A stretch of 64,000 nucleotides of DNA, taken from assembly GCF_030128875.1 (NCBI RefSeq), contig NZ_CP124620.1, positions 3,793,001-3,857,000 on the forward strand, written 5' to 3'. The notes beneath the pieces are model-generated. The model saw only the letters and a program-made list of their open reading frames with translations, was not told the origin of the DNA and searched no databases. Shown here piece by piece: positions 36,973 through 63,806 of this stretch; the stretch's first letter is position 1, and every line of letters begins with the position of its first letter. This DNA is from Stenotrophomonas sp. BIO128-Bstrain (GTDB lineage: Bacteria; Pseudomonadota; Gammaproteobacteria; Xanthomonadales; Xanthomonadaceae). The translations under genes and the position numbers were made by a program.

Positions 36973-36990
36973 GGTCATGCTCCTGGGTGG

Positions 36991-37050
36991 AGAGCTGCCG
37001 GCCAGCGGCCGGCACGACCGGAGCCCACGATCCGCAGCGCAGATCGTGGG
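36991..37050. repeat. Two palindromes between kduD and the SGNH-cupin gene
   Basis: CTGCCGGCC-AGC-GGCCGGCAC (36991-37012) resembles the gltB-gltD elements. A second hairpin, CCCACGATC and GATCGTGGG (about 37022-37050), follows. Both would be in the kdu operon transcript. Confidence 0.7.
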
Positions 37051-37073
37051 CGCGCCAGCGCGTAGCGAGGGTG

Positions 37074-37829
37074 TTACCGGGCGAGCCAACCACCGTCGAC
37101 CGGCAGGACCGCGCCGTTGACGTAGTCCGAGGCGCTGGAGGCCAGGAACACGGCGGTGCCGCCGAGGTCTTCCGGGGTGCCCCAGCGTGCGGCCGGGATG
37201 CGATCGAGGATGGACTTGTTGCGGTCCTCATCGGCGCGCAGTGCGGCGGTGTTGTCGGTCGCCATGTAGCCCGGGGCGATCGCGTTGACGTTGATGCCCT
37301 TGCTGGCCCATTCGTTGGCGAGCAGGCGGGTGATGCCGGCGATGCCGCTCTTGCTCGCGGTGTACGACGGCACGCGGATACCGCCCTGGAAGGACAGCAT
37401 CGAGGCGATGTTGATGATCTTGCCGCGGCCCTGGGCGATGAAATGCTTGCCGGCGGCCTGCGAGATGAAGAACGCGGACTTGATGTTGACGCTCATCACG
37501 TCGTCCCAGTCCTGCTCGCTGAACTCCACCGCGTCGGCGCGGCGGATCAGGCCGGCGTTGTTGACCAGGATGTCCAGGCCGCCCAGGCCTTCGATGGTTT
37601 CGCGGATGACGCGCTCGACCGGCTCGATGCTGATCAGGTTCGCTTCGATCGCCAGGCAGCGGCGACCCAGGGCGGTGATCTTGGCGATGGTTTCGGTGGG
37701 CGGCGCGATGCCGGCCACGGCGACGTCGGCACCGGCCTGCGCCAATGCGACCGCGATGCCCTGGCCCAGGCCGGTGTTGCCACCGGTGACGAGGGCGACC
37801 TTGCCTTCCAGACTGAACGGATTAGCCAT
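37074..37829 (-). CDS. kduD: 2-dehydro-3-deoxy-D-gluconate 5-dehydrogenase
   Basis: KduD reduces 2,5-diketo-3-deoxygluconate to 2-keto-3-deoxygluconate (KDG) with NADH in pectin or alginate breakdown. It is a short-chain dehydrogenase: TGGNTGLGQGIA (cofactor loop), NNAG, the Ser in NIASMLSFQGG and the YTASKSG catalytic Tyr/Lys. Length (251) is right. The ATG at 37829 starts MANPFSLEGKVALVTGG, as in the family. kduI lies 66 bases upstream with a hairpin between; the SGNH-cupin gene follows. The order kduI, kduD, esterase shows one pathway. It is inside the LacI-type operator unit described below. Confidence 0.95.
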   Translation of the reverse strand: MANPFSLEGKVALVTGGNTGLGQGIAVALAQAGADVAVAGIAPPTETIAKITALGRRCLAIEANLISIEPVERVIRETIEGLGGLDILVNNAGLIRRADAVEFSEQDWDDVMSVNIKSAFFISQAAGKHFIAQGRGKIINIASMLSFQGGIRVPSYTASKSGIAGITRLLANEWASKGINVNAIAPGYMATDNTAALRADEDRNKSILDRIPAARWGTPEDLGGTAVFLASSASDYVNGAVLPVDGGWLAR

Positions 37830-37861
37830 TGCGTATGTGGTCCTTGTCCAATGCATAACAG

Positions 37862-37895: not shown

Positions 37896-38792
<897 letters not shown>

Positions 38793-40065: not shown

Positions 40066-41646
40066 TCAATCAAGGGCGCGGTAGCGGAAGTTCCGGAACT
40101 GGACCTTGCCGTCACCGGCAGCATAGATCGCCGGCTTCAGGGCCAGGAACTTGCCCGCCACATTGTGATGGTAGCCGGAGACTTCCATCTGAACCGGGTA
40201 CTTCTGCCAGGTTTTGCCATCGGTGCTGGAGTGGATGGTCACGATGTGGCGGTTGTTGGTCACCCGCAGCCACAGCGTGCCACCGGTGGCGCTGGGGGCC
40301 AGCCGGGTGGGGCGCTCCTCGCCGTAGCGGTGCATGATGAACTTCTCGCCGTTGCTGCCCACGCCCACGTACAGGCGGTCGCTGTAGAAGAGCAGGGCGC
40401 CGCCCACCGCGCCCGGGGCAATCTCCATCTCCACCTCGAACTGGTAGGCCTTGTCGCCGGCGATGGCGGTCAGCGGCGAGCTGTCGCGCGGGGTGCTGCC
40501 CTTGCCCTGCAGCACCATGCCCTTGCCGGTGAAGCCCAGGCGCTTGTACTCGTCCTGGGCCGGGTTGAAGAACGACCACTGTGCGCCGAGGGTCTTGCCG
40601 CGGAAGTCATCGGACAACGCCATGCCGTGCTGGCCGACCGATGTGCCCGAAGGCATGGCCAGCGGCTGGCCGAGGTCGCCGCCCTTGGCCACGAACCAGC
40701 CATCGGCGGTCCATTCGATCGGCTCCAACAGGGCCTGGCGCCCCAGCGTCCAGTACCCGTTTTCGTAGCCGTGATACATCATCCACCAGCGCCCGTCGGT
40801 ACCTTCGATCACCGTGGCGTGGCCGCGCGACCACCACGGCTCGGCGGCCGACTGGGTGCGCATGATCGGGTTGTTCGGCGCGTTCACCCACGGGCCGTGG
40901 ATCGAGCGCGAGCGCGCGGTGATCACCATGTGGCCGGTGGGCGGGCCGGCGGTGCCGCCCACGGCGGTGGTCATGTAGTACCAGCCATCGCGGAAATTGA
41001 TCTTCGGGCCTTCCTGCGCATAGGCCTCCACGTCCCAGCTTTCCGGGTACTTCCAGCCGTCGTAGACGTGCTTGGGCGTGCCGACCACGCTCAGACCGTC
41101 GTCGGCCAGCTGCACATAGTCGCCGCCGCTGAGGAACAGGTAGCGCTTGCCGTCTTCGCCCACCGCATGGCCGGGATCGATGTAGCTGCCCAGGCCGATG
41201 TCGATCGGCTCGCTCCACGGGCCCTTGATGTTGTCGGCCCAGACCACGAAGTTGCTGCGGGTCTCGCCGGTGCGGGCGGGGAAGTAGATGTAGTAGCGGC
41301 TGCCGTGCTTGACGATATCCGGGGCCCAGATCGCCCCCACGTTCTTGGTGATCGCATGGCCCAGCGGCTGCCAGTTGACCAGGTCGCGCGAGTGCCAGAT
41401 CGGCAGGCCGGGGTATGCATCGAACGAGGACAGGGTGAGGTAATAGTCGTCGCCATCCTTGAGCACGGACGGGTCCGGACGGTCGCCGGCGAACACCGGG
41501 TTGAGGAAGGTACCGTTGCCCAGGTCGGCCTGGCGCTGGTTCTCGATCCCGCGCTTCCAGGCGGTGGCCGGCTCGGCGGCGTGTCCGGCGCCGGCCAGCA
41601 GCAGGCAGGCGGTGGCGAAGCTCGCCAGGGTCTTCCTCAAGTGCAT
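40066..41646 (-). CDS. Secreted GH43 family glycoside hydrolase
   Basis: A 526-residue secreted enzyme with signal peptide (ASFATACLLLAGAGHA). The five-bladed GH43 propeller shows the catalytic base in RPDPSVLKDGDDYYL (Asp), IWAPDIVKHGSRYYIYF (Asp pKa modulator), and the general acid region around EGPKINFRDGWYYM (Glu). A C-terminal beta-sandwich (about residues 340-526: DDFRGKTLGAQWSFFNPAQD and the following strands) is the GH43_C2 type. Family members are beta-xylosidases or alpha-L-arabinofuranosidases; in this pectin setting side-chain arabinan or galactan removal is likely, but the exact substrate is not shown. It lies between the pectate lyase and regulator genes on the same strand. Confidence 0.9.
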   Translation of the reverse strand: MHLRKTLASFATACLLLAGAGHAAEPATAWKRGIENQRQADLGNGTFLNPVFAGDRPDPSVLKDGDDYYLTLSSFDAYPGLPIWHSRDLVNWQPLGHAITKNVGAIWAPDIVKHGSRYYIYFPARTGETRSNFVVWADNIKGPWSEPIDIGLGSYIDPGHAVGEDGKRYLFLSGGDYVQLADDGLSVVGTPKHVYDGWKYPESWDVEAYAQEGPKINFRDGWYYMTTAVGGTAGPPTGHMVITARSRSIHGPWVNAPNNPIMRTQSAAEPWWSRGHATVIEGTDGRWWMMYHGYENGYWTLGRQALLEPIEWTADGWFVAKGGDLGQPLAMPSGTSVGQHGMALSDDFRGKTLGAQWSFFNPAQDEYKRLGFTGKGMVLQGKGSTPRDSSPLTAIAGDKAYQFEVEMEIAPGAVGGALLFYSDRLYVGVGSNGEKFIMHRYGEERPTRLAPSATGGTLWLRVTNNRHIVTIHSSTDGKTWQKYPVQMEVSGYHHNVAGKFLALKPAIYAAGDGKVQFRNFRYRALD

Positions 41647-41684: not shown

Positions 41685-42842
41685 TCAGCGCGCCCCGGGC
41701 CCGGCAAGACGCTGTTGCCAGCGTGGGTACTCGGTGGTGATCAGGGCCTGCGGCCAGGTGCCGTACCAGTGGTAGCCGGTGCGGCGCTCGCGCGGAATCT
41801 GATCGAAGGTGGCCACGCGTTCGCCCTCCCGGTTGGCCAGCACCACCGAACTGTCGCGCAGGTCATGGAAGCGCCCCCACAGCAGTGGGGCATCCGTATC
41901 GGCGACCAGGCGGCGATCCACCGTGGTGCGATGGAACTGGAACTGTTCCGGCGTGGTCTGGAAGGTCTCCAGCCGCCAGCCGGTCAGCGCGTGCGCCTGG
42001 AACCACGCCATGGCGGCGTTGACCGAGGCGACCACCTCCGGCGATGGATCCGGGATCGACATCAGGTAGCGGACCACGCCGACACTCTCGTCGGTGACCA
42101 GCGCCGGCAGTTCGAACTTCCGGCCCTGCGCGGGCTGCAGGGTGGTGCGGTCGTACTGGCCGGCCCAGATCGTCGGCACACCGTCCTGGCGCACCTGCAG
42201 GCGCAGCAGGCAGGCATCGCCGGCGGTCACGGCCGCGTCCACGCGGGCACGCTGATCGGCCGTGATGAAGCCGAACACCGGCTCGCGCTGCACCCGCCGC
42301 AGCGTGGTCAGCACACCGCTGGTGACGTCGTCAGCGAAGGTGATATGGCCATGGTAGGAGGTGCGCGACGGCACCGAGTGCGGCCAGCCGCCACACGTTG
42401 GAATCTGCTCGGCGAGGATGAAGTCCAGGCCGCGCACGGCCGCATCGCGATAGCGGGCCTCCCCGCTGCGCGCGAAGGCCTCGGCCAGGTAGCTGACCTG
42501 GGTGTAGATGTTGCGGTTGTCGAAGCTGCCGCCGGGCGTGGCCTGGTCGGCCGATACCTGGGCCCTGGCGGCCTCGTCGAGGATCCGCTGGGGATCCTGG
42601 TTGACCGCCCAGCCACCACCGTGCCGCTGCAGCGCGACCAGGTTGTCGGCGATCTGCCGGTACTGATCGGGCCGATAGCGCGGGTAGTCCGTGCCGTGGC
42701 CGCTCTGCCAATGGTTGATGCCGTCCTGGAAGCCTCGCAGCGCGATGTCCTGGCCCTGCGCCATGGCGGCGCAGGGCAGGGCGACCCACAGCAGGGCAGC
42801 CAGCCGCCGCACGCTTACGCGCGCAGCAGGGCGGGCAGCCAC
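41685..42842 (-). CDS. Pectate lyase, PL10 family
   Basis: A PL10-type pectate lyase of about 385 residues that cleaves polygalacturonate by beta-elimination, giving unsaturated oligogalacturonates. A signal peptide (RRLAALLWVALPCAAMAQ) marks export. The (alpha/alpha) toroid of the Pel-15E/PelA group appears as YRQIADNLVALQRHGGGW, FDNRNIYTQVSYLAEAFA, and ADDVTSGVLTTLRRV; the conserved catalytic Arg/Asp region is in AGQYDRTTLQPAQGRKFELP. Starts are GTG either at 42842, which overlaps dctM by 28 bases and has a weak GGA, or at 42812, which gives MRRLAALL right after the dctM stop. I list the longer one with doubt. It is followed by the GH43 gene. Confidence 0.9.
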   Translation of the reverse strand: MAARPAARVSVRRLAALLWVALPCAAMAQGQDIALRGFQDGINHWQSGHGTDYPRYRPDQYRQIADNLVALQRHGGGWAVNQDPQRILDEAARAQVSADQATPGGSFDNRNIYTQVSYLAEAFARSGEARYRDAAVRGLDFILAEQIPTCGGWPHSVPSRTSYHGHITFADDVTSGVLTTLRRVQREPVFGFITADQRARVDAAVTAGDACLLRLQVRQDGVPTIWAGQYDRTTLQPAQGRKFELPALVTDESVGVVRYLMSIPDPSPEVVASVNAAMAWFQAHALTGWRLETFQTTPEQFQFHRTTVDRRLVADTDAPLLWGRFHDLRDSSVVLANREGERVATFDQIPRERRTGYHWYGTWPQALITTEYPRWQQRLAGPGAR

Positions 42843-44098
42843 AGCGACATTTCCGGGAAGAAGGTGACGATCAGCAGCACGCCGAGGGCAGCGAACCAGA
42901 ACGGCCAGATCGAGCGCATGCTCTCACCCACGCTGATCTTGCCGATCGCGGTACCGATGAACAGCACCGAGCCCACCGGCGGCGTCACCAGGCCCAGGCC
43001 ACCGGTCAGCACCAGCACCAGGCCGAAGTGGATCGGATCGATGCCGTAGGCCTTGGCCACCGGCAGGAAGATCGGCGTGCAGATCAGGATCATCGGCGCC
43101 AGGTCCATGAAGGTGCCCAGCAGCAACAGCATGATCACGATCATCAACAGCACCATGAACTGGCTGTGCGCGAACGACTGCAGGAAATTGACCGCCGCCG
43201 ACGGCACTTCCAGATAGGCCAGCAGCCAGCCGAACACCGCCGCGGTCGCGATCACGAACAGGATCACGCCGGTACTGCGCGCGGCATGGGTGACCGTGCC
43301 GAGGAACTCGCGCCAGTCCAGCTGGCGATACAGCACCGTGGTCACCAGCAGCGCGTAGACCACGGCGATCGCCGCGCTTTCCACCGCGGTGAAGATGCCG
43401 GCGCGGATACCGATGAAGATCAGCGCGACCAGGCCCAGGCCGGGCAGGGCCGAGACCAGCCGCAGCAGCACCGCGCGCCAGCCCGGGAAGATCTCCACGC
43501 CATAGCCGCGACGGCGCGCGACCACGTAGCCGGTGATCATCAGGGCGACGGTCATCAGCAGCGCCGGCACGATGCCGGCCGCGAACAGATCGGCGATCGA
43601 CAGGCCACCCCCGGCCGCGGCCGAGAACAGGATCAGGTTGTGCGAGGGCGGCACCAGCAGCGCGACCAGCGCGGCGGTGATGCTGACGTTGACCGCGAAG
43701 TCACGGTCATAGCCGCGCTTGACCATCTGCGGAATCATCGTGCCGCCGACCGCCGAGACATCGGCGATGGCCGAACCGGATACACCGCCGAAGAACAGCG
43801 AGGACAGGATCGACACCTGGCCCAGGCCGCCGCGCATGCGCCCGACCAGCGAAGACGCCAGCGAGATCAGGCGCTCGGAGATGCCGCCGCGCATCATGAT
43901 TTCGCCGGCGAAGATGAACAATGGAATGGCGATCAGCGAGGCCGAGCCGGTACCGGCCGAGATCTGCTGGACCAGCACCAGCGTCGGCAGATCCAGGTAC
44001 CACAAGGTAGCCAGGGCGGCGGCGGCGAGCGCGAACGCGACCGGCACACCGAGCAGCAACAGCACCGCGAACACGGTGAAAAGAATGGTGATACCCAT
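42815..44098 (-). CDS. dctM: TRAP transporter large permease
   Basis: The 427-residue DctM-type membrane subunit of a tripartite ATP-independent periplasmic transporter. It consists almost wholly of hydrophobic spans (about 12), starting with MGITILFTVFAVLLLLGVPV and including LLVPPSHNLILFSAAAGGGL and GLGLVTPPVGSVLFIGTA, the two conserved reentrant/Pro motifs of the family. It works with DctQ and DctP, driven by a sodium or proton gradient. In this locus the likely cargo is an unsaturated or keto-deoxy uronate, or galacturonate. The start ATG at 44098 lies just after the dctQ stop, so translation is probably coupled. Confidence 0.94.
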   Translation of the reverse strand: MGITILFTVFAVLLLLGVPVAFALAAAALATLWYLDLPTLVLVQQISAGTGSASLIAIPLFIFAGEIMMRGGISERLISLASSLVGRMRGGLGQVSILSSLFFGGVSGSAIADVSAVGGTMIPQMVKRGYDRDFAVNVSITAALVALLVPPSHNLILFSAAAGGGLSIADLFAAGIVPALLMTVALMITGYVVARRRGYGVEIFPGWRAVLLRLVSALPGLGLVALIFIGIRAGIFTAVESAAIAVVYALLVTTVLYRQLDWREFLGTVTHAARSTGVILFVIATAAVFGWLLAYLEVPSAAVNFLQSFAHSQFMVLLMIVIMLLLLGTFMDLAPMILICTPIFLPVAKAYGIDPIHFGLVLVLTGGLGLVTPPVGSVLFIGTAIGKISVGESMRSIWPFWFAALGVLLIVTFFPEMSLWLPALLRA

Positions 44099-44101
44099 GA
44101 C

Positions 44102-44632
44102 TCAGCGATCTCCCTCGGCAACGGCATCGGCCGGCCGTACAGCCAGCGCCATCTGGTTCACGGCGAAGATCGCCATCAAGGCGCCACCGATCGACAGGGG
44201 CAGGTAGTTGATGCTCTGCGGCAGGTTGGCGCCGGCGGCCTTGATGTCCAGGCCGTCCATCAGCAGCACGGCCGCCCACCAGGCGATGACCACGCCCAGC
44301 ACGGCCACCACCAGCGCGGCGAACACATCGACCGCGCGGCGCAGGCCCGGGCCCATGTGCGCGGCGAGCAGGAAGAAGCCGAAATGGCGGCGGGTATGCA
44401 CGCCGGTGGCCGCGCCCAGGCTCATCGCGGTGGCGAGCAGCAGCAGCGTGACCGGCTCGGTCCAGCTGGGCGAATCATTGATCACATAGCGGGCGAACAC
44501 CTGCCAGCCCTGCACCACCACCAGGCCCAGCAGGGCGATGACGGCAATGTAGATCGCCACATCGGCGATGACGTTGAGCAGGCGCTGCGGCGCGGTCGGG
44601 GTGATGACGGTTTCGGAAGTCGAGTCGGACAT
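44102..44632 (-). CDS. dctQ: TRAP transporter small permease
   Basis: The 176-residue DctQ-type subunit with four membrane spans, including VIADVAIYIAVIALLGLVVV and VDVFAALVVAVLGVVIAWWA. The family signature is the WQVFARYVINDSPSWTEPV segment between the first two spans. It bridges the large permease DctM and the binding protein DctP in the inner membrane. It sits between dctP and dctM with only a few bases on each side. The C-terminus (DAVAEGDR) is charged and cytoplasmic. The ATG at 44632 gives a short soluble N-terminus before the first span, as is usual. Confidence 0.93.
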   Translation of the reverse strand: MSDSTSETVITPTAPQRLLNVIADVAIYIAVIALLGLVVVQGWQVFARYVINDSPSWTEPVTLLLLATAMSLGAATGVHTRRHFGFFLLAAHMGPGLRRAVDVFAALVVAVLGVVIAWWAAVLLMDGLDIKAAGANLPQSINYLPLSIGGALMAIFAVNQMALAVRPADAVAEGDR

Positions 44633-44644
44633 CGCGTCGGGGCC

Positions 44645-45649
44645 TCAGGCGAAGTCGCGGATGCGACGGGTGAGGGCGGCCAGCTCCGGCTGCTGCAGGT
44701 AACGCTGCAGCAGCGGGTCGGCGGCCTTGCGGAAGGCCGGCATGTCGACCTCGTTGAACTTGATGCCGAAGTCGGCCACGGCCTGGCGGGCGGTGTTTTC
44801 CGAGGCATCCCACTGCTCGCGCATCACCTGCACCGACTCGCGTGCGGTCTCGATCACCAGGGTGCGGTCGGCCGGGCTCAGCGCATCGAAGCTCTGGCGC
44901 GACATCAGCAGCACGTCCGGCGCGTAGGAATGATCGCTCTGCGACCAGTAGTGCGCGGCCTCGAAGTGGCGGCTGGAGTGGAAGCTGCGCATGTTGTTTT
45001 CCGCACCGTCGATCATGTGCGTTTCCATGCCCGAGAACGTATCGCCCAGCGACATCGGGGTGGGGTTGGCACCGAGCAGGCGCATCAACTGGATGAAGAT
45101 GTCCGAAGACGCCACGCGCAGCTTCAGGCCATGCAGGTCCTTGGGTTCCACGATCGGATGCTTGGTGTTGTAGAAGCAGCGCGCGCCGGAGTCGTAGATG
45201 GCCAGGCCGACCAGATCGCGGGTTTCAAAGCCCTGCAGGACCGTATCGGCAACGCCACCATCGAGGGCGCGGCGCATGTGCGCCACCGACTCGAACACGT
45301 ACGGCAGGCACAGGCCCTGGGTCAGCGGAAATGCGTTGTTGAGCGCGCCGGAGTAGACGCGGGTGATGTCGATGGCGCCGAAGCGGGCCATGTCGATCGC
45401 CTCGGACTCGCGGCCGAGCTGGCCGGAGTGGTACTGGCGCAGGCGCAGCCGGCCGCCGGTTTTTTCTTCCAGCGTCTTCCCGATCCATTTCACCGCCGTG
45501 ACGGTGGGGTAGTCGGCGACGTGGACGTCGGTGGCGGTCAGCAACTGCGCACCAGCCGGTGCGGCGTTGGACGACCGCGAACAAGCCGTCAGCGCGGGCG
45601 CGGCGAGCGCGCCCAGACTGGTGGCCAGGAAACTTCTGCGAGTGAACAT
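44645..45649 (-). CDS. dctP: TRAP transporter substrate-binding protein
   Basis: A 334-residue DctP-type periplasmic solute-binding protein. The N-terminus carries a twin-arginine-like signal with a lipobox-like Cys (MFTRRSFLATSLGALAAPALTACS), so it may be exported by Tat or as a lipoprotein. DctP family phrases are YHSGQLGRESEAIDMARFGA, LKLRVASSDIFIQLMRLLGA and DGAENNMRSFHSSRHFEAAHYW; the Arg in LKLRV is the conserved carboxylate-binding residue, so the ligand is an acid such as a uronate. The ATG at 45649 is preferred because GGGAGGG lies about 6 bases before it; one at 45676 adds nine residues. Confidence 0.93.
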   Translation of the reverse strand: MFTRRSFLATSLGALAAPALTACSRSSNAAPAGAQLLTATDVHVADYPTVTAVKWIGKTLEEKTGGRLRLRQYHSGQLGRESEAIDMARFGAIDITRVYSGALNNAFPLTQGLCLPYVFESVAHMRRALDGGVADTVLQGFETRDLVGLAIYDSGARCFYNTKHPIVEPKDLHGLKLRVASSDIFIQLMRLLGANPTPMSLGDTFSGMETHMIDGAENNMRSFHSSRHFEAAHYWSQSDHSYAPDVLLMSRQSFDALSPADRTLVIETARESVQVMREQWDASENTARQAVADFGIKFNEVDMPAFRKAADPLLQRYLQQPELAALTRRIRDFA

Positions 45650-45686
45650 CTGCGCCCTCCCAAGCGTGCTCGCCATGTCCGCGCGG

Positions 45687-46508
45687 TTACCCGGCGGCGA
45701 TGGCCTTGCAGGTAATGTCGCCGTAGCCGACGAAACGGATCAATGCTTGCTGGCCCACGGCGATGTCGTGGATGCCGGTAGCGTTGCCACTGGCGATCAG
45801 GTCGCCGGCCTTCAACGGCCGCCCACGCTGCGCCGAGCGGCCCAGGGCGAAGGCATAGGCGGTACGCAGGCCACCGGGCAGCAGGGTCGCGCCACCGGTG
45901 CCGACCACCTCGCCCTCGATGCGGGTTTCCGCACGCAGGTCGGCATCGTCCAGGCGGGTCCAGTCCGGGATTTCCGGGCCCAGCACCAGGCCATTGTTGT
46001 TGCCGAAGTCCGACACCACCACGCGCGGACCGAGCTTGTTGATGGTCGCCAGCGGGCTGCTGGCCACTTCAACGCCGATGAAGAGCTTGGCGGCCAGGGC
46101 CTCGGCTTCTTCCGGAGTCCACTGCAGCTTGTCCGCCGGGGCGTCTTCCTGCAGCTGGATCACGTACTCGGCCTCGACCGCGCCGAAGCCCCCGACGAAC
46201 ACCGGAATCTCTACTGTTCCACCGGTAGCATTCCAGAGCTGACGCGAGAAGATCGGGCCCAGCAGCCGGTCGTCGCCGGAGACATCGCGGCGCTCGGCGG
46301 CGATGTAGCCCACCTTCCAGCCGACCACCTGGTCGTCCCACAGCGCGATGGCCTGGTCCTGTACCTGGTAGGCGGTGACGAGGTCTTCCGGGATGGTGCC
46401 CGGGAAATCCGGCAGGGATTGGCCGTGTTGGCGGGCGTTGACGAAGTGCCGGGCGATCTCGCCCAACCCTTGGTCGGGCAGGTCCTGTTTGCCGTGGTCG
46501 TTGCTCAA
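45687..46508 (-). CDS. 2-keto-4-pentenoate hydratase-like protein (FAH family)
   Basis: A protein of about 273 residues of the fumarylacetoacetase-like/2-keto-4-pentenoate hydratase family (MhpD type). Recognisable parts are VTAYQVQDQAIALW, GWKVGYIA, GPIFSRQLW, EAEYVIQL (metal-binding Glu region), and the C-terminal SGNATGIHDIAVGQQALIRF. Such enzymes hydrate or isomerise unsaturated 2-keto acids. The start is unclear: TTG at 46508 with GGGAG 7 bases ahead is my choice, and GTG at 46535 or TTG at 46541 are possible. It is the first gene of the operon with dctPQM, so it may act on a product of unsaturated uronates, an assignment I infer only from position. Confidence 0.85.
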   Translation of the reverse strand: MSNDHGKQDLPDQGLGEIARHFVNARQHGQSLPDFPGTIPEDLVTAYQVQDQAIALWDDQVVGWKVGYIAAERRDVSGDDRLLGPIFSRQLWNATGGTVEIPVFVGGFGAVEAEYVIQLQEDAPADKLQWTPEEAEALAAKLFIGVEVASSPLATINKLGPRVVVSDFGNNNGLVLGPEIPDWTRLDDADLRAETRIEGEVVGTGGATLLPGGLRTAYAFALGRSAQRGRPLKAGDLIASGNATGIHDIAVGQQALIRFVGYGDITCKAIAAG

Positions 46509-46561
46509 GCGGGTCTCCCGGAAAAATTGTTGCACTGCCAATCGACAGCGGTTGGATGTGC

Positions 46562-46590
46562 TGTATATGGTAAACCGGTGTCATTGGCAA
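46562..46590 (-). promoter_or_regulatory. Predicted promoter with the operator in its spacer, for the hydratase-TRAP operon
   Basis: On the minus strand TTGCCA (46590-46585) and TATACA (46567-46562) are 17 bases apart. The operator fills exactly the spacer. This should give tight repression by a LacI-type protein. Confidence 0.7.
46568..46585 (-). promoter_or_regulatory. Operator AATGACACCGGTTTACCA in the divergent esterase/hydratase spacer
   Basis: It is identical in all 18 bases to the kduI operator at 38812-38829. It can serve the minus-strand hydratase-TRAP operon and possibly the plus-strand esterase pair, whose start is at 46660. Confidence 0.8.
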
Positions 46591-46659
46591 TGTGCAGCGC
46601 ATCAGAACGGCTGCCGGTCAGGCACGATGCCTGTTCCCCTGCCGGAAGGACGTCCGCCG

Positions 46660-47652
46660 ATGCGCCGCCCCCTAGTGTTGTCATTGTTCCCTTTCTTGCT
46701 GCTGGCCTGCGGCCTCGCGCGCGCAGCCGAGCATGCCGTGCCGGACACCGAGCCGGCCGCTGGCGCGGCGGACCGGATCGCGTTGTGGCCGGCGGGCGAG
46801 GTGCCGGGCGAAGCCGGCCCGGCCAGCGTGCCCAACGTGGTGGAGCGCAGCCATGATCCCGCCCTGCCGGATCGCTACATCGACAACGTCAGTGCGCCCT
46901 ACCTGGTGGTGTACCGGCCACCGCGCCCGAACGGCAGCGCGTTGCTGGTGGTGCCTGGCGGCGGCTACCAGCGCATCGTGCTCGACAAGGAAGGCACTGC
47001 CCTGGTGCCGGCGTTCGTCGAGCAGGGCGGGGTGACCCTGTTCGTGCTGCGCTACCGGCTGCCCGCCGGCCGCAGTGATCGCCAGGCCGCCCTGGCCGAT
47101 GCGCAGCGCGCGATGCGGGTGATCCGCGCGGATGCTTCGCGCTGGCAGATCGATCCGCAGCGCGTCGGGGTAATGGGGTTTTCGGCCGGCGGCCACGTCG
47201 CGGCACGGCTGAGCAATGGCTTCGATGCACCGGTCTATCCCCATCGCGATGCCATCGATGCGCTCAGCGCACGCCCGGATGTCGCTTTGCTGATCTACCC
47301 GGTGATCGACATGGGCGCGCACGCGCATACCGGCTCGCGTGCGCGCCTGCTTGGCCCGCACCCCGATGCCGCGCTGCAGGCACGGTTCTCGATGCAGGAG
47401 CAGGTCCGCACCGATACGCCGCCGACCTTCCTGGTGCATGCGCAGGACGACACCGTGGTCTCGGTCGACAACAGCCTGGTGTATTACCAGGCGCTGCGGC
47501 GCGCCGGCGTCGCCACCGAAATGCATCTGTTCCCGTTCGGCGGCCACGGCTTCGGCGTGCGCATCCCGGCCGGTTTGACCGCCGCGCAGTGGCCCGAGCT
47601 GGCCCTGCGCTGGATCCCCTCGCGCCACACGGAGCCCGCGCGCCATGACTGA
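46660..47652 (+). CDS. Secreted alpha/beta-hydrolase esterase (acetylxylan-esterase-like)
   Basis: A 330-residue secreted esterase of the alpha/beta-hydrolase (BD-FAE-like) type. Signal peptide LVLSLFPFLLLACGLARA; then VVPGGGYQRI (oxyanion HGGG-like), the nucleophile elbow GFSAGGHVAARL, the Asp in VHAQDDTVV and the His in FGGHGFG. The Asp-His-Ser triad is complete. In this setting it probably removes acetyl groups from pectin or hemicellulose fragments. The ATG at 46660 is preceded by GGAAGGA at good spacing. It overlaps the next gene by 8 bases, so both are made together. Confidence 0.88.
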   Translation: MRRPLVLSLFPFLLLACGLARAAEHAVPDTEPAAGAADRIALWPAGEVPGEAGPASVPNVVERSHDPALPDRYIDNVSAPYLVVYRPPRPNGSALLVVPGGGYQRIVLDKEGTALVPAFVEQGGVTLFVLRYRLPAGRSDRQAALADAQRAMRVIRADASRWQIDPQRVGVMGFSAGGHVAARLSNGFDAPVYPHRDAIDALSARPDVALLIYPVIDMGAHAHTGSRARLLGPHPDAALQARFSMQEQVRTDTPPTFLVHAQDDTVVSVDNSLVYYQALRRAGVATEMHLFPFGGHGFGVRIPAGLTAAQWPELALRWIPSRHTEPARHD

Positions 47653-52347: not shown

Positions 52348-55300
52348 CTACCGGTCCAGCACCACCAGGTTGTTGCGCTGGGTCACCTCGGCGGCGCCAT
52401 CGGCCTGCATGACACGCACGCGCAGCCCACGGTGATCCCCCGCCGGCAGCGGCAGGCTGATCGTGGTGGTTTTCGGCACCAGATCGCTCGGCGCAGGCAG
52501 GCTGGGTATCTCGACCCGGGCAAGCTCACGGCCCTTGGCATCTTCCAGCACCGCCACGCCCAGGCTGGTCGCGACGTGGCCCAGGCTGTGCACGGTCACC
52601 TGCACCTGGCCGTCCTCCACGCGCACATCGCCCCGCCCGATGCCGAGGTCGGCCCGCTGCTCGACCGGCGTGCCGGCCTGCACCAGCTCGAACTCGAACA
52701 CCTGGCTCTGCCCCGGCGCGAAGCGCAGCGTGGTCGAGGCGCTGCGTTCCAGCGCCAGATCGCGCGTGGTCGCCTTGCCGTCGATCCGGTCATCGCCGTC
52801 GCGGTCCACGCCGCTGGTCATCCGCCATTGCCCGGCGGTGACGTTCCAGGTGCTCATCTCCGCGTCCACCGCGCGCGTGCCCAGGTTGTAGGCGATCACC
52901 TTGAAGCGGTCCGGCGAAGGCGCGTGCACCAGCAGCGCCACCTGTTCGGCCGCGTCCGGCTGGGCGAAGCGCCAGCTCACGGTGTGGCCGGGCCAGCTCT
53001 GGTTGCGCTTGAGCGCGATACCGCCCAACCGCGCGCGCTGCAGGAATTCGCTCGGCGCTTCGACACGGTCAGACCACCAGTGCCCTTCGGTGTTCATGTA
53101 TTCGCGCTGCGCCTTGGCCTGGATGCCATCAGCGTGCAATGCCTCCAGGTACTTCTTGTCGCCGGTGGCCTGCCACGCCATCAGACTGGAGAAGCCGGTG
53201 TTGCCACCGTCGGCATCGCTGATGAAGCGCGGGTTCCACTCGGCACCGCGGCCCAGCGCCTCGACGTAGTTCTCGCCCAGGTTGGACAAGGCACCCGGGC
53301 CACCGCGCTCCACGCGGTAGTCCAGCGCCTTGAGGTACTTGTCATCGCCGGTCCAGCGCCATGCCGCCCAGAAGGTATGCATGATGTCGCCGCTGCCTGA
53401 GCCGTTGTTGAGCTCGCCGCCGCGGGTCTTGCCGGTCGCCCAGTGGATCTCGTTCGGCAGCGCCCAGCGCCCCTTGTCGTCGGTGTAGGCGTGGGCCAGG
53501 TAGCTGTCGGCCAGGCCGGTGACCAGCTTTCGGCCGGTCGGGTCGGCGTTGTACTGCCCGATCAGGAACGCCGGGTGCAGCACCGGGAAGGAGTACGGTT
53601 TCTGCCACTGCCAGTTCGGCTCGCGGTAGACCTTGTTGCCGCCGAACCAGTTGCTGGAGAACAGCAGATGCCCCTGCGGATTGGGCAGGATGATGCGTTC
53701 ATCGAAGGCCTTCACCGTTTCCATCAGGCGCTCGACGGTGAGCGGATCACCCCAGTTGAGGTAGAGCATCGCGCTGTTGGTGTTGATGCCTTCCTCGTAG
53801 GCATGCAGCTCGTCGGTCTCGATGGTGCTCAAGCCGTTGCTGAACATGCCATTGCGGTACACCGCGTCGGACAGTGCGGTCAGCGAGGCGTTGAGCTTGT
53901 CCGGCTGCACGCCCATCAGCGCCAGCCCAGGCCACTGCTGGGTCAGGTCGGAGTCGTCGGAGATGCCGCCGCCGAAGTCGCCATAGGCGATCTGGCGGTT
54001 GTCGATCCACCAGTCGATGAAGCGGCGTACGTACTTGAGGTCTTCGGTCTGGCGGAAGGCCCACAGCGGTACGCCCTTGGGCGCGTCGGGCTGGGTGAAC
54101 GGCGGTTTGCCCTGGCTGTTGTAGCTGATGTAGTTCCAGTACAGCCGGCCCAGTTCGTGGTCCGGATCGACGCGCAGCAGATCGCTGAGGTCGGCATAGA
54201 CGCGCGCATACAGGCGCTGGCGCTTGGAGGTGGTGTGCTCTTCGACCAGGAAGCCCCAGTTGTCGCGTACCTGATTGAAGCGGTCGGCGATGTGTTCCTT
54301 CTTCGCCTCCTCGCGGTCCTTGTAGACCATGCGGATTTCCGCCCCATCCAGCGAGGTCGCGTTGAAGCCGGGCGCCGCAGAGGCGATGGAGATCCACAGG
54401 CTGTCGGCGGTCAGGATGCGATCGCGCAGGTCCAGCCACAGGGTGCGCTTCTGGCCCGGCTTGACCGAGACCGACACGTCGATCATGTCGCGCGCCGGCC
54501 AGATCGGGTCCTTGATGCGGATGTTGAGCGGGATCAGGCCGTCCTGCGTGGCCGGCAGATCCAGCTTGGGCAGATCGATGGCGATGCCATCCAGGCCGTC
54601 ATGCATGTTCTCCCAGCTGTGTGCCCAGCTGCGGATCAGCGGCTGCGCGGCCGGCGCGTCGCTCACGCCGGAGGGAATCAGCACGTGCACGATCGGCAGC
54701 GGCTGCGCGGGCAGCGTGTCGGCCGTGCGCTTGCGCGAGCCGGCGCCCTTGGGCAGCGCCATCACCGTGCTGCGTTCGGCCGCCGGGTAGCGGCCGTCGA
54801 TGTACTCGCGCAGTGCGGCGATGTTGGTGTAATCCGGCAGCGCCTGGCTGTCGATCAGGTAGCGCTGCTTCACCGTGCCCTCCGGCTCGGCGGCGTCGCT
54901 GACCTGGTAGGCCCAGATTTCCTGGATCGGGGTTTCCTGCGCGGTATTGCGGAAGTGCAGCACGCCGCCGTCCTGGGCTGGAATGCTGTTGACGCTGCGG
55001 ACCACGCCCTGCGGGCGCTGGAACAGGGTCTGTGCCGGCTGGCCGTCCACGCTGTGGCTGAGCCCGCCAAACGCTGCACCGCGCACTTCGATGCGGTTGA
55101 CGGTTTCACCGGCCGGCAGGGTCAGGTCGAGCTGCTGGCCACCCTCGACATAGGTATTCCAGTCCGGCAGCTGGAAGTAATCATCCCGCCCGGCCAGCCG
55201 CGAGCGGTTGTAGACGCCCGGCCAGGTGGTCTCGGCGATGCCGTCGGTCGCCTTCCACATCCACTGCTTGTGGTCCTTGGTATCGGCGAATTCGATTTTG

Positions 55301-56166
55301 CGGATCGTGGTGGTCGGGGCACTCAGTGCCGGCGGCGGCGTGGCGTCCCACCCATGGCGATGGCGCCAGGCGCGCATCGGGTCAGGCGCGGCCACGGCCG
55401 TGGTCGGGGCAGCATTCCGGGCCAGTGCGGCCATGCCGGCCGGATCGAGCAGACGGTCGTAGACGCGGATCTCGTCGAAATCGCTGCCACGCAGGAAGTT
55501 GTAGCGGCTCTGCACCTGGTAGGGCGCCATCACGCGTCCGGCCAGGCCGAGCTGATCGAGTGCGGCGTCGTAGTCGGCGGTGGTCTCCTGGCGGGCAACC
55601 TCTTTGCCGTCCACGTACAGGCGCACGCCGTGGTTTTCGTCCCAGCCGAAGGCGATGTGCTGCCACTGCTGCGGCGAGGGGTTCTGGTCGAGCTTGAACG
55701 ACACGCGGGTGCGCGCCAGGTTGGCATCGGTGACGAAGGCATCGAAGCCGTGGCCGTTCCAGTCGATGCGCAGCCAGGCCATGTCCCAGCTGCTGTGGTC
55801 GGCATAACCAACCCGGAAGATCACGAACGGTGCTTCACCCACCGCGTAGCGCGAACGCCAGAAGAAGCCCAGCGTACCGCGTTGGGCCTGGATGTTGCCG
55901 GGGGCATTCCACGACAGCACGCCGTCATCGGCCCATTCGATCGCACTGCCATGCGCCCCGTCGGGCACCCGCTTCACCTTGTCCACGAAGTTGGGGACCG
56001 GGTCGCCTGCGGCGGTATCGGCCTGCAGGCCCTGGTCGGCCGACACGTGGAACAGCAGCTGGGGCGCGGTCTGCGCCCAGGCGGTGCCACTGCCCGCAAG
56101 CAGCAGCGCCAGCAGGCTGGCGGACAGGCGGGAGGGGCGGATCGAGGCGGCGACAACGCGATGCAT
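52348..56166 (-). CDS. Large secreted LamG-containing protein, candidate polysaccharide enzyme
   Basis: A 1272-residue protein with a signal peptide (LSASLLALLLAGSGTAWAQ). Residues 40-245 form a concanavalin/LamG-like domain (GTLGFFWRSRY, HIAFGWDENHGVRLYVDGKE). Residues 280-620 are beta-rich and not recognised. Residues about 640-1010 are helical with many aromatic residues (GRLYWNYISYNSQGKPP, QIAYGDFGGGISDDSDLTQQ, EGINTNSAMLYLNWGDP, GSGSGDIMHTFWAAWRW), in the style of an (alpha/alpha) toroid found in polysaccharide lyases and hydrolases. The last 180 residues look CARDB/Ig-like. No catalytic family could be named. It lies directly downstream of the TBDR gene at 56318 on the same strand, in the pectin locus, so it is probably a periplasmic or surface enzyme on a pectin component. 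Confidence 0.8.
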   Translation of the reverse strand: MHRVVAASIRPSRLSASLLALLLAGSGTAWAQTAPQLLFHVSADQGLQADTAAGDPVPNFVDKVKRVPDGAHGSAIEWADDGVLSWNAPGNIQAQRGTLGFFWRSRYAVGEAPFVIFRVGYADHSSWDMAWLRIDWNGHGFDAFVTDANLARTRVSFKLDQNPSPQQWQHIAFGWDENHGVRLYVDGKEVARQETTADYDAALDQLGLAGRVMAPYQVQSRYNFLRGSDFDEIRVYDRLLDPAGMAALARNAAPTTAVAAPDPMRAWRHRHGWDATPPPALSAPTTTIRKIEFADTKDHKQWMWKATDGIAETTWPGVYNRSRLAGRDDYFQLPDWNTYVEGGQQLDLTLPAGETVNRIEVRGAAFGGLSHSVDGQPAQTLFQRPQGVVRSVNSIPAQDGGVLHFRNTAQETPIQEIWAYQVSDAAEPEGTVKQRYLIDSQALPDYTNIAALREYIDGRYPAAERSTVMALPKGAGSRKRTADTLPAQPLPIVHVLIPSGVSDAPAAQPLIRSWAHSWENMHDGLDGIAIDLPKLDLPATQDGLIPLNIRIKDPIWPARDMIDVSVSVKPGQKRTLWLDLRDRILTADSLWISIASAAPGFNATSLDGAEIRMVYKDREEAKKEHIADRFNQVRDNWGFLVEEHTTSKRQRLYARVYADLSDLLRVDPDHELGRLYWNYISYNSQGKPPFTQPDAPKGVPLWAFRQTEDLKYVRRFIDWWIDNRQIAYGDFGGGISDDSDLTQQWPGLALMGVQPDKLNASLTALSDAVYRNGMFSNGLSTIETDELHAYEEGINTNSAMLYLNWGDPLTVERLMETVKAFDERIILPNPQGHLLFSSNWFGGNKVYREPNWQWQKPYSFPVLHPAFLIGQYNADPTGRKLVTGLADSYLAHAYTDDKGRWALPNEIHWATGKTRGGELNNGSGSGDIMHTFWAAWRWTGDDKYLKALDYRVERGGPGALSNLGENYVEALGRGAEWNPRFISDADGGNTGFSSLMAWQATGDKKYLEALHADGIQAKAQREYMNTEGHWWSDRVEAPSEFLQRARLGGIALKRNQSWPGHTVSWRFAQPDAAEQVALLVHAPSPDRFKVIAYNLGTRAVDAEMSTWNVTAGQWRMTSGVDRDGDDRIDGKATTRDLALERSASTTLRFAPGQSQVFEFELVQAGTPVEQRADLGIGRGDVRVEDGQVQVTVHSLGHVATSLGVAVLEDAKGRELARVEIPSLPAPSDLVPKTTTISLPLPAGDHRGLRVRVMQADGAAEVTQRNNLVVLDR

Positions 56167-59760: not shown

Positions 59761-62518
59761 TCAGAACTTGTAGCGCACGCCGAGCAGGAACTGGCGGCCG
59801 GTTTCGGTGTACTGCAGCGGCAGGCGACCGGTGGCCGGCGAGTAGACCCACTCGTCGGAGGCTTCGTTGGTCAGGTTGATGCCTTCCAGGCTCAGTTCGA
59901 GCTGGTCGCTGATCGTGTAGCGGATCGAGGCATCGATGACGGTGGTGCCGGTCATGCCGTGGTAACCGTCGAGGTTGAAGCCGGCTTCCGTACCCGGCGC
60001 CTGGGTCAGGTAGTCATCGCGGTTGGTCGCCGAGACACGGCCGGAGAAGACCTTGCCTTCGTAGAACAGCGTGGCGTTCCAGGACGACTTGGACAGGCCG
60101 GTCAGGTCGGTCTTCATCACCGGCTGGCCGGCCGCGTTGAGGTACTGGATCTGCGATTCCACCCAGGTGTAGTTCAACTGCACGCCCAGGTTGGACCACT
60201 TGCCCGGCAGGAAGGTGAACGGCTGGGTGTAATTGGCTTCCACGCCGTGCAGTTCACCGCCCGGGGTGTTGACCGGGCGGCTGTAGGTGAAGTCGTCGGC
60301 GGGCGAGGCACCGGTGCCGATCAGCAGCGAGGCGGGCAGGCCGCTGTCGGAGTACGGACGCACTTCGCGGGTGGTCTGCACGAAGCTCTCGATGTCCTTG
60401 TAGAACAGCCCGATGCCGGCCATCGCGCCTTCGGCGAAGTACCACTCGAAGCCGAGGTCGACGTTGGTCGCGCGGATCGGCTCCAGGTCCGGGTTGCCGC
60501 TGGAGATGGTGCGCGCACCACCGGCCACGGCCACCGTTGCGCCCGGCGTCAGGCTGCCCAGGCCCGGGCGGCTCATCACCTTGGCCGCGCCGAGGCGGAT
60601 CAGGAAGTCCGGGGTGACTTCAGCCACCAGGTTGAACGAGGGCAGGGTGTCGTTGTAGGTGCGGTTCTCGGTGGTGGAGACCGTACCGGTGGCCAGCGTG
60701 GACAGGCCGGTGGAGCTCTGCTTGGTGCGCACGTAGCGTACACCCACGTTGCCCGACAGCGGCAGGCTGCCGAGTTCGGTGGAGAACTCGCCCATCAGGT
60801 AGGCACCACGGTCCTTCTCTTCGACGCTGCGCACGTTGTTGGCGCGCGGGGCGACGGCGAAGATGCCGCTGTTGCTGTAGATGTCGAACTGATCGGCAAT
60901 CGCGTTCAGGTCCGGCACCACCCAGTTGGACGGGCTGCCGTTGATGCCCTTCAGGCCGGCCTGCTCGGTCATGTCCACCGGCACGATCTTGGTGCCATCG
61001 GCGAAGTTGGGCACGGCCAGTTCGCTGGCACGGCGCAGCTCGGTGGTCTTGAAGGTGTAGTCCTTGGCCAGCACGCCGCCCTTCAGGCGGAAGCCCGGGC
61101 TGATGTTCCAGTTGAAGTCGAGCTGGCCGGTATCGAAGTCATTGTCCACGTACTGCGGGCGCAGGCGGATTTCCGCCAGTTCCCAGCCCGCCGGGTTGGT
61201 CGGGTCGATGCCGTAGTTCAGCGTCGGGAAGCGGCTGTTGCCCCGGTAGTCGTAGCTGTAATTGTCGACGTCGTACTTGTCCATGATGATCGTGGTCTGC
61301 ACCGGGTTCTCGTGCTTGGAGCGCGAGATGCCGACCTTGCCGGACACGGTGAAGTCATCGCCAAAGCGGTGCTGGCCATTGAGGCTGAGCTGCTTGAACT
61401 CGGTGCTCCACTCGTCATGGCGGTTTTCGGTGCGGATGTCGACGTTGTCGAACTCGCCGTAGACCAGCGCATTGTTCTCGATCACGCCGTTCTTGACGAT
61501 CATCGCCGGCTTGCCGACCAGGCGCGGCGTGGTGCTGGTGCCACGGCTGAAGGAGATCGCTTCGATGTAGTGCTCGTCGCGGGTCGCATCGATCTTGGGG
61601 GTACAGCGCATCCAGCGAGAATTCGGTGGCATCGCTCGGCTTCCACTGCAGGGTGCCGGTCACGCCCAGGCGCTTCTGCTCATGCTCCATCTGCACGTAG
61701 CGCGGGAAGCGCGGGTGGTAGACGTCGGCCGAACGGGCGGCGGCGAACGGCGAGGCCGCGTTGAAGTTGCCGTTGCTCGGGCCGTTGGCCCAGCGGCCGG
61801 TGTTGGAGCCTTCTTCCAGCGCCTGGCGCTCGGAGTAGGCCACCGACAGCAACGCACCGAAGGTGCCGTCGGCGAAGGTGTTGGAAATCAGTGCGGCCAT
61901 GCGCGGGTCGGCTTTTTCGGCCATCGCGTTGTAACCGGCCTGGCCGCTGGCGGCAAAGGTGAAGCCGTCATAGTCGAACGGGCGCGCGGTGCGCAGGTCG
62001 ACCGTGGCCCCCAGCGAGCCTTCCTCGACGTCGGCCGAGGCGGTCTTGCGCACCATCAGCTGCGAGAACAGGTCCGAGGCGAACACGTTGAAGTCGAAGC
62101 CGCGGCCGCGGTTGGTGCCGCCGCTCTGGTCACCGGCACCGACCGTGGTCAGCGCTTCCATGCCGTTGATGCGCACGCGGGTGAAATCCGGGCCCAGGCC
62201 ACGCACGGAGATGTTGCGGCCTTCGCCCGCTTCGCGGGTGATGACCACGCCGGGGATGCGCTGCAGCGACTCGGCCAGGTTCAGATCCGGGAACTTGCCG
62301 ATATCCTCGGCGACGATGGCGTCGACCACGCCGGCTTCGCCGCGCTTGATGTCCAGCGCCTTCTCGACACTGGCGCGGTAGCCGGTGACGACGACGGTAT
62401 CCAGATCGGTGGGGTTGGTCCCCGCATCCTGGGCCAGCGCGGTACCACTCAGCGCCAGGCCGATCGACAATGCGAGCAAGGTAACCGGTGTCTTTTTCTG
62501 CGTGTTCTGGACTTGCAT
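59761..62518 (-). pseudogene. TonB-dependent receptor, frameshifted (or sequencing error)
   Basis: A paralogue of the neighbouring TBDR. The start MQVQNTQKKTPVTLLALSIGLA is at 62518, and the plug domain is complete (AEDIGKFPDLNLAESLQRI, SVRGLGPDFTRVRINGMEA, EGSLGATVDLRTARPF). The frame goes wrong at SLDALY: on the minus strand the next bases are CCCC-AAGATCGATGCG, one C too many. The rest of the barrel continues in the next frame (KIDATRDEHYIEAISFS) to the stop at 59761, ending in TGRQFLLGVRYKF. Removing one base of the five-G run at 61597-61601 restores a 900-residue receptor. Either a real frameshift (possibly slippage-based) or an assembly error; I cannot tell. Confidence 0.8.
62480..62492. 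promoter_or_regulatory. Operator-like sequence inside the second TBDR signal peptide
   Basis: GGTAACCGGTGTC again, in the codons for KKTPVT, identical to 59459-59471. See that entry; functional status unknown. Confidence 0.35.
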
Positions 62519-62789: not shown

Positions 62790-63806
62790 ATGAGTCGTGT
62801 TGTCTGTTTCGGAGAGTTGTTGCTGCGCATGAGCGCGCCCGGCCGGGAGCTGTTGCTGCAGAGCCCGCAGCTGGCCGTGCACGCCGGCGGTGCAGAGGCC
62901 AATGTCGGTGTCTCCCTGGCCCATCTGGGGCATGCGGTGGCCGCGGTCAGCACGGTGCCGGCCAACCCGCTGGGCGAGTACGCCCTGGGCGAACTGCGCC
63001 GGCACGGAGTGGACACCGCGGCGGTGCGCCGCACCGAGGGCCGCATGGGCCTGTACTTCCTGACCACCGGCGCCGTGCAGCGTGCCAGCGAAGTGGTCTA
63101 CGACCGCGCCGATTCGGCCTTCGCCAACAGCAGCGCCGCCGACTACGACTGGGACACGCTGTTGACCGGTGCCGACTGGCTGCACCTGTCCGGGGTGAGC
63201 CCGGCGCTCAACCCGGCCATGGCCCAGGCCACGCTGGCCGCCGCGCGTGCGGCGTGCGCGCGGGGCGTGAAGGTGTCCTTCGATGGCAACTTCCGCCCGT
63301 CGCTGTGGGCGCGCTGGCAGGGTGATGCACCCGGCATCCTGCGCGAGCTGTTCGCCTGCGCCGATCTGGTCTTCGCGGACTACCGCGATATCGGGGTGGT
63401 GCTCGGGGGTGAATTCGGGCAGGCCGATGTGCACGAGCGGGTCGATGCAGCCGCCGCGAAGGCCTTCGCGGCCTTCCCGCGGCTGCAGTGGATGGCCTGC
63501 ACCCAGCGCACCCCGCACAGTGTGGACACCCATTCGCTCGGGGCGATGCTGATCGGCCGCGATGGCACCCGCGCCGTGGCACCCACCCGCGAGATGATCG
63601 GCATCGTGGACCGCATCGGCGGTGGCGATGCCTTCGCCGCCGGCATCCTGCATGGCATGATGCGCGGCTTCGCGCCGGACATGATCGTGCGCTTCGGCCT
63701 GGCCGCAGGCTGCCTGAAGCATTCCATCCCCGGCGATTTCAACCCTGTCAGCGAGGCTGACATCATGGCCCTCACGGGCGAGGAGCGATTCGATGTCCGG
63801 CGCTGA
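62790..63806 (+). CDS. kdgK: 2-keto-3-deoxygluconate kinase
   Basis: KdgK phosphorylates KDG to 2-keto-3-deoxy-6-phosphogluconate, the step after KduD. It is a PfkB-family sugar kinase of 338 residues: VVCFGELLLRMS at the N-terminus, HAGGAEANVGVSLAHLG (substrate loop), VSFDGNFRPSLW (as in KDG kinases), and the catalytic signature DRIGGGDAFAAGILHGMM with the base Asp. The ATG at 62790 lies about 67 bases after the predicted promoter. The stop overlaps the next gene by 14 bases, so KdgK and the aldolase are made together. This order kdgK-eda closes the pectin pathway to pyruvate and glyceraldehyde 3-phosphate. Confidence 0.96.
   Translation: MSRVVCFGELLLRMSAPGRELLLQSPQLAVHAGGAEANVGVSLAHLGHAVAAVSTVPANPLGEYALGELRRHGVDTAAVRRTEGRMGLYFLTTGAVQRASEVVYDRADSAFANSSAADYDWDTLLTGADWLHLSGVSPALNPAMAQATLAAARAACARGVKVSFDGNFRPSLWARWQGDAPGILRELFACADLVFADYRDIGVVLGGEFGQADVHERVDAAAAKAFAAFPRLQWMACTQRTPHSVDTHSLGAMLIGRDGTRAVAPTREMIGIVDRIGGGDAFAAGILHGMMRGFAPDMIVRFGLAAGCLKHSIPGDFNPVSEADIMALTGEERFDVRR

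Follow-up and report, generated by a model that had tools for sequence, protein, structure and literature searches.

In Xanthomonas campestris, a TonB-dependent receptor (TBDR; XCC0120), a pectinesterase (XCC0121) and a pectate lyase (XCC0122) are presented as one locus in PMC1790865, according to which polygalacturonate induces this TBDR and the genes on either side of the locus are contiguous in two other Xanthomonas; the same gene names also appear in PMC4686621 and PMC5132194. The intermediate 5-keto-4-deoxyuronate (DKI) is reported in PMC7953866 to arise by either of two routes, PL22 together with KdgF, or GH105. Here, we analyzed a stretch of 64,000 nucleotides (the window) from Stenotrophomonas sp. 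BIO128-Bstrain (contig NZ_CP124620.1, positions 3,793,001 to 3,857,000), the source genome comprising 4.49 Mb in a single contig. It hosts the gene of a 1272-residue protein (52348..56166, minus strand), quite probably a pectin-active enzyme of a family unclassified in comparison with Pfam, NCBIfam and PDB sequences. Its sequence family and domain architecture are what is new, whereas fold and role are of known kinds.

Domain architecture and conserved residues

The open reading frame (ORF) extends exactly from 52348 to 56166, begins with ATG and encodes a signal-peptide-like start, as an earlier sequence-only reading had described. The gene is coding, because relatives are encoded in public genomes (109 stretches) and 2009 database proteins scored at E≤0.001 among the 7992 candidates of one protein search, in which the best 120 of the 2009 were listed and some of the remainder may match LamG only. 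This number is at odds with the label "orphan" assigned by that reading; its proposal of an unfamiliar pectin enzyme survives as that of a toroid enzyme belonging to none of the recognised families, drawn from the predicted fold, 50 conserved positions and the gene neighbourhood.

All parts of the protein are encoded on the minus strand. A likely Sec signal peptide (residues 1-31, ending in AWA|Q; 56074..56166), judged by eye, makes export likely. It is followed by the LamG/jelly-roll domain (residues 36-253; 55408..56061) that had been noticed in the letters and is backed by AlphaFold2, fold comparison and Pfam, with PF13385 spanning residues 90-243 at 38.6 bits against a cut-off of 27.6. AlphaFold2 further delineates beta domain 1 (residues about 285-440; 54847..55314), also apparent from conservation, beta domain 2 (residues about 488-597; 54376..54705) and linker helices (residues 618-685; 54112..54315). 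Modelling of residues 605-1172 (mean predicted local distance difference test, pLDDT, 86.4; predicted template modelling score, pTM, 0.85) agrees with the helical toroid suspected earlier: residues about 701-1048 (53023..54066) are predicted to form an (alpha/alpha)6 toroid, the candidate catalytic domain, for which VIA-align gave fold matches. Beta domain 3 (residues 1060-1165; 52672..52989) and a tail (residues about 1170-1272; 52348..52659) complete the protein. The CARDB-like character ascribed to this tail holds in part, with PF07705 weakly matched by two of 17 scanned pieces (12 being tails; best E 0.045) and precomputed on a single distant relative, P0192, whereas the tail of the window's own protein had no Pfam match in the same scan.

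In a Pfam scan of the protein only LamG exceeded the cut-off, and neither NCBIfam nor PDB sequences gave a significant match. PADLOC found nothing, and among the top-ranked open-licence PubMed Central papers no title or abstract opening was on this protein. A Baseplate_J match (residues 396-471, E 0.00023), just under the Pfam cut-off and recurring in one of the 17 pieces, was taken as chance; the name "baseplate J-like" that one database entry (P0007) gives to this protein looks spurious, as if originating from a weak profile match. The GH88/GH105 unsaturated uronyl hydrolases have the (alpha/alpha)6 toroid in common with the predicted fold but no sequence kinship (hhalign probability 2.5), PF07470 matching neither the protein (up to E 1) nor 12 toroid pieces (up to E 10), and they differ in that the 1272-residue protein is about three times longer, adding LamG and other beta domains. 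A pair of catalytic aspartates in loops ahead of the inner helices is a mark of GH88/GH105. With the one GH76 alpha-1,6-mannanase compared, no sequence kinship was seen either (hhalign probability 0.5); PF03663 had no match in the protein, the 12 toroid pieces or the window's genome, and the pectin neighbourhood sets the 1272-residue protein apart. PL22 enzymes are beta-propellers, and PF14583 was without a match in the protein up to E 1. The pathway step assigned to PL22 oligogalacturonate lyase in PMC7953866 is the one that the protein would fill.

Alignment of 46 toroid sequences, 12 from alignment A4 (window included) and 34 picked from the best 120 matches of a toroid query, some of them partial, revealed 50 positions without a differing residue at identities down to about 40%, counting positions for which 90% or more of the rows have coverage; among the more distant rows, seven share 39-47% identity with the window's protein. 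The conserved positions include four clusters: G729..GGG..D737-D738-x-D740, with its acidic motif at 53947..53958; D785..L787-H788-x-Y790-E791 where a toroid helix begins (53794..53814), E786 lying outside the strict list; W1031-x-D1033-R1034, past the toroid helices (53065..53076); and Q1043-R1044-x-R1046-L-G-G1049. The first two (D737/D738/D740; D785) sit before or at the modelled helices 734-750 and 788-803, and by likeness to toroid glycosidases, the loops bearing these clusters would constitute the active site. Within beta domain 1, 50 of 161 positions (280-440) are invariant in 54 sequences. Since conservation in LamG, beta domain 1 and beta domain 2 equals that of the toroid, the whole protein probably works as one unit.

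Linkage to pectin genes and the route to DKI

Just upstream of the 1272-residue gene on the same strand lies TBDR 1 (TIGR01782; 56318..59554, minus), corroborating the receptor gene mentioned in the sequence-only reading, and beyond it TBDR 2 (59761..62518, minus), split in two ORFs in the window and a single ORF in relatives. The three genes point away from a divergent PfkB sugar kinase (62790..63806, plus), likely a 2-keto-3-deoxygluconate (KDG) kinase, which stays below the specific NCBIfam cut-offs and is followed by a 2-keto-3-deoxy-6-phosphogluconate (KDPG) aldolase gene (PF01081) crossing the window's end. On the opposite side, the nearer part of the flank comprises PhzF-type, cysteine-dioxygenase-type, GDSL esterase, carboxylesterase and PaeX-like acetylesterase genes, the last (46375..47652, plus) scoring 353 bits under an equivalog cut-off of 550. 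The farther part holds TRAP (tripartite ATP-independent periplasmic) transporter genes (42815..45676, minus; DctM 42815-44098, DctP 44645-45676), a PL10 pectate lyase (41685..42842, minus; PF09492, TIGR02474, PDB pectate lyases), a GH43 glycosidase (40066..41646, minus; PF04616), a LacI regulator, KduI (37896..38744, minus; NF002091, 407 bits vs cut-off 250) and KduD (37074..37856, minus; TIGR01832, 412 bits vs 339). With KduI, KduD, PL10, TRAP transporter, GH43 and the likely KDG kinase all within the window, the suggestion of a pectin locus proved right.

This linkage to pectin genes is conserved, as shown by the best 80 of the 109 stretches (56-99% identity over the best segment), in which neighbour counts are lower bounds with many loci stopping short of the farther genes. 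Of 73 loci, 71 have a same-strand TBDR upstream, TBDR 1 and TBDR 2 being counted jointly as they match each other. Homologues of the kinase occur in 74 of the 80 loci, of the PaeX-like protein in 41, the carboxylesterase in 40, DctP in 38 and GH43 in 23. PL10 homologues were detected in 32 loci, in 26 of them just upstream of the relative of the 1272-residue gene; a pectinesterase homologue accompanies 24 of these 26 and none of the 54 others, and in two loci (L062 and L042) the pectinesterase comes first ahead of the relative, then the PL10 homologue. Outside the class, the loci of a Sphingomonas (L087), a Phenylobacterium (L088) and genome G260 (L101) have KduI and KduD alongside; at the fourth such locus (G387), none of the window's pectin genes is nearby, five Pfam-tested ORFs being unrelated or TBDR.

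In X. euvesicatoria (L077), the TBDR 2 ORF stops where the frame of the relative starts. In X. hortorum (L062), TBDR 1, pectinesterase and pectate lyase are interposed between TBDR 2 and the relative, the same set as stands in a row in XCC0120-XCC0122. Judged from gene order, the gene would therefore border XCC0120-XCC0122 in X. campestris. An identity with the X. campestris TBDR pair XCC1749/XCC1750-1751 was dropped: XAC1768/1769 of X. citri, presumably the counterparts of XCC1749/1750, sit in a xyloglucan cluster. The latter placement is given in PMC8245568, and PMC1790865 describes the X. campestris pair, one of them frameshifted, as induced by polygalacturonate and arabinose.

Because KduI and KduD both pass their equivalog cut-offs, the cell is equipped to use DKI. 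The window's genome contains no match to PF07470, PF14583, PF00295 or PF06917 (the last searched without a positive control), profiles that stand for GH88/105, PL22, GH28 and PL2; by these four, no enzyme is detected that would turn unsaturated oligogalacturonide into monomer, although KduI and KduD are present. Within 41 genomes, PF07470 matched six (including four fragmentary matches in the same genus), PF14583 three, none over the cut-off, PF00295 one and PF06917 one at borderline, and the 1272-residue protein itself was matched in 18, one match consisting of three pieces. Among 198 genomes of the family, KduI is present in 35 of 37 carriers vs 40 of 161 non-carriers. DctP resembles TRAP binding proteins, the closest being 4n8y, presumably a galacturonate complex; if DctP binds galacturonate as well, monomers would have to be made before the inner membrane, fitting an exported exo-enzyme.

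Proposed function and competing explanations

As a tentative proposal, the 1272-residue protein may hydrolytically free unsaturated galacturonate from oligogalacturonides. LamG and the beta domains would keep the enzyme attached to pectin or pectin fragments, D737/D738/D740, D785/H788/Y790/E791 and D1033/R1034 would line the toroid mouth and carry out the chemistry, and conserved arginines would bind carboxylates. Terminal unsaturated galacturonate units would thereby be removed from the oligogalacturonides that pectate lyase leaves behind; the released 4,5-unsaturated galacturonate, a monomer that opens to DKI, would cross the inner membrane via the TRAP transporter and enter KduI, KduD, KDG kinase and KDPG aldolase. 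The protein would thus take the place that GH105 or PL22 enzymes have elsewhere. Taken in its full breadth, and with somewhat greater reserve, the proposal is that the protein founds a new family of carbohydrate-active enzymes, as a secreted exo-uronidase that is self-contained and built of several domains. It would make monomers from pectate-lyase products, replace GH105/PL22 throughout the Stenotrophomonas-Xanthomonas family as well as in some other Proteobacteria and Acidobacteria, and complete polygalacturonate uptake there via TBDR and TRAP. If the protein does fill this step, a large set of proteins whose names are at best "LamG domain-containing" or "baseplate J-like" would be given a function, the way to a new CAZy family may be opened, and the use of pectin by xanthomonads and rhizosphere Stenotrophomonas would become testable. 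However, 36 KduI genomes have neither the 1272-residue protein nor a GH88/105 match over the cut-off, and therefore it is not the sole solution; with a GH43 gene in the locus, arabinan or rhamnogalacturonan is a less likely substrate.

The same release could proceed by elimination, which we consider rather doubtful. The protein would then be an exo-acting pectate or oligogalacturonate lyase performing beta-elimination in the toroid by His788/Tyr790 and arginines, a reading that draws on identical locus and pathway evidence, on H788, Y790, R724, R1034 and R1044 being without a differing residue in the 46 sequences, and on alpha/alpha toroids being the scaffold of many polysaccharide lyases. However, the best toroid fold matches are glycosidases and epimerases, as judged by VIA-align re-examination of 50 rows, all drawn from Foldseek's list, among which PL8/12/15/17/21-type toroid lyases do not occur, and the modelled beta domain after the toroid measures only about 100 residues, whereas PL15/17-type lyases possess a larger one; toroid lyases of the PL8/12/15/17/21 kind join to the toroid a large antiparallel beta domain at the C-terminus and rely on His/Tyr catalysis. 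Hydrolase chemistry is slightly preferred over the exo-lyase.

In respect to the substrate, the homogalacturonan backbone is more likely than a rarer pectin part, because PL10, pectinesterase and KduI/KduD are nearby. An enzyme for the rhamnogalacturonan backbone or arabinan/galactan side chains, for which GH43 with its homologues in 23 of the 80 loci and the many accessory beta domains, as in rhamnosidases, would speak, appears unlikely given the PL10 and pectinesterase homologues upstream of the relatives and the polygalacturonate-induced X. campestris TBDR beside pectinesterase and pectate lyase (PMC1790865). Still less probable is that the protein serves the TBDR as a glycan-binding partner without catalysis, secreted or at the surface, its toroid being a binding platform. 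The gene's position behind a TBDR in the window and in most loci, the presence of LamG and further beta domains and their toroid-like conservation would suit such a partner, but the conserved acidic clusters occupy loops that precede toroid helices, the place of the active site in toroid glycosidases, and no such TBDR partner is known outside Bacteroidota.

Distribution of relatives and additional observations

Among the matches listed, the named relatives are mostly Stenotrophomonas, Xanthomonas, Pseudoxanthomonas and Luteimonas, with Sphingomonas, Phenylobacterium and acidobacterial proteins further out; the nearest named locus is that of Stenotrophomonas bentonitica VV6 (L016, 99%). The family survey gave a match in 38 of 198 genomes, 37 over the whole profile and one to LamG only. 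On phylum level, the full profile matched nine of 398 genomes (three of these LamG only) and the toroid profile, in 398 genomes centred on G260, retrieved five carriers and no distant relatives, both surveys scoring only 2-4 candidates per genome so that weak relatives may escape. The toroid of the Phenylobacterium member as query matched 190 proteins; among the best 120 of these are relatives, acidobacterial ones included, with identities of about 40-47%. Distant relatives inspected start inside the protein, and partial genes are possible.

In two genomes, the C-terminal part is present a second time, as a partial copy close to the full gene (L053:15239-16264 and G613:C2:5955-6854). The Stenotrophomonas-like locus filed under Bacillus subtilis SK7B5 (L014) likely reflects contamination, as do partial matches labelled Mycobacterium tuberculosis (P0203) and fungus (P0223). 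The halves of TBDR 2 overlap and 74 ORFs in the compared loci match both at over 60% identity, the split representing a frameshift or a sequencing error. A GDSL esterase with a fused cupin domain (35869-37089, minus) adjoins KduD and KduI; its cupin was not counted as KdgF, the KdgF structure 5fq0 reaching only E 0.037 behind other cupins. A 284-aa protein (45687-46541, minus) matched neither Pfam nor NCBIfam, has a homologue in 40 of the 80 loci and, by eye, presumably resembles a fumarylacetoacetase-type hydratase.
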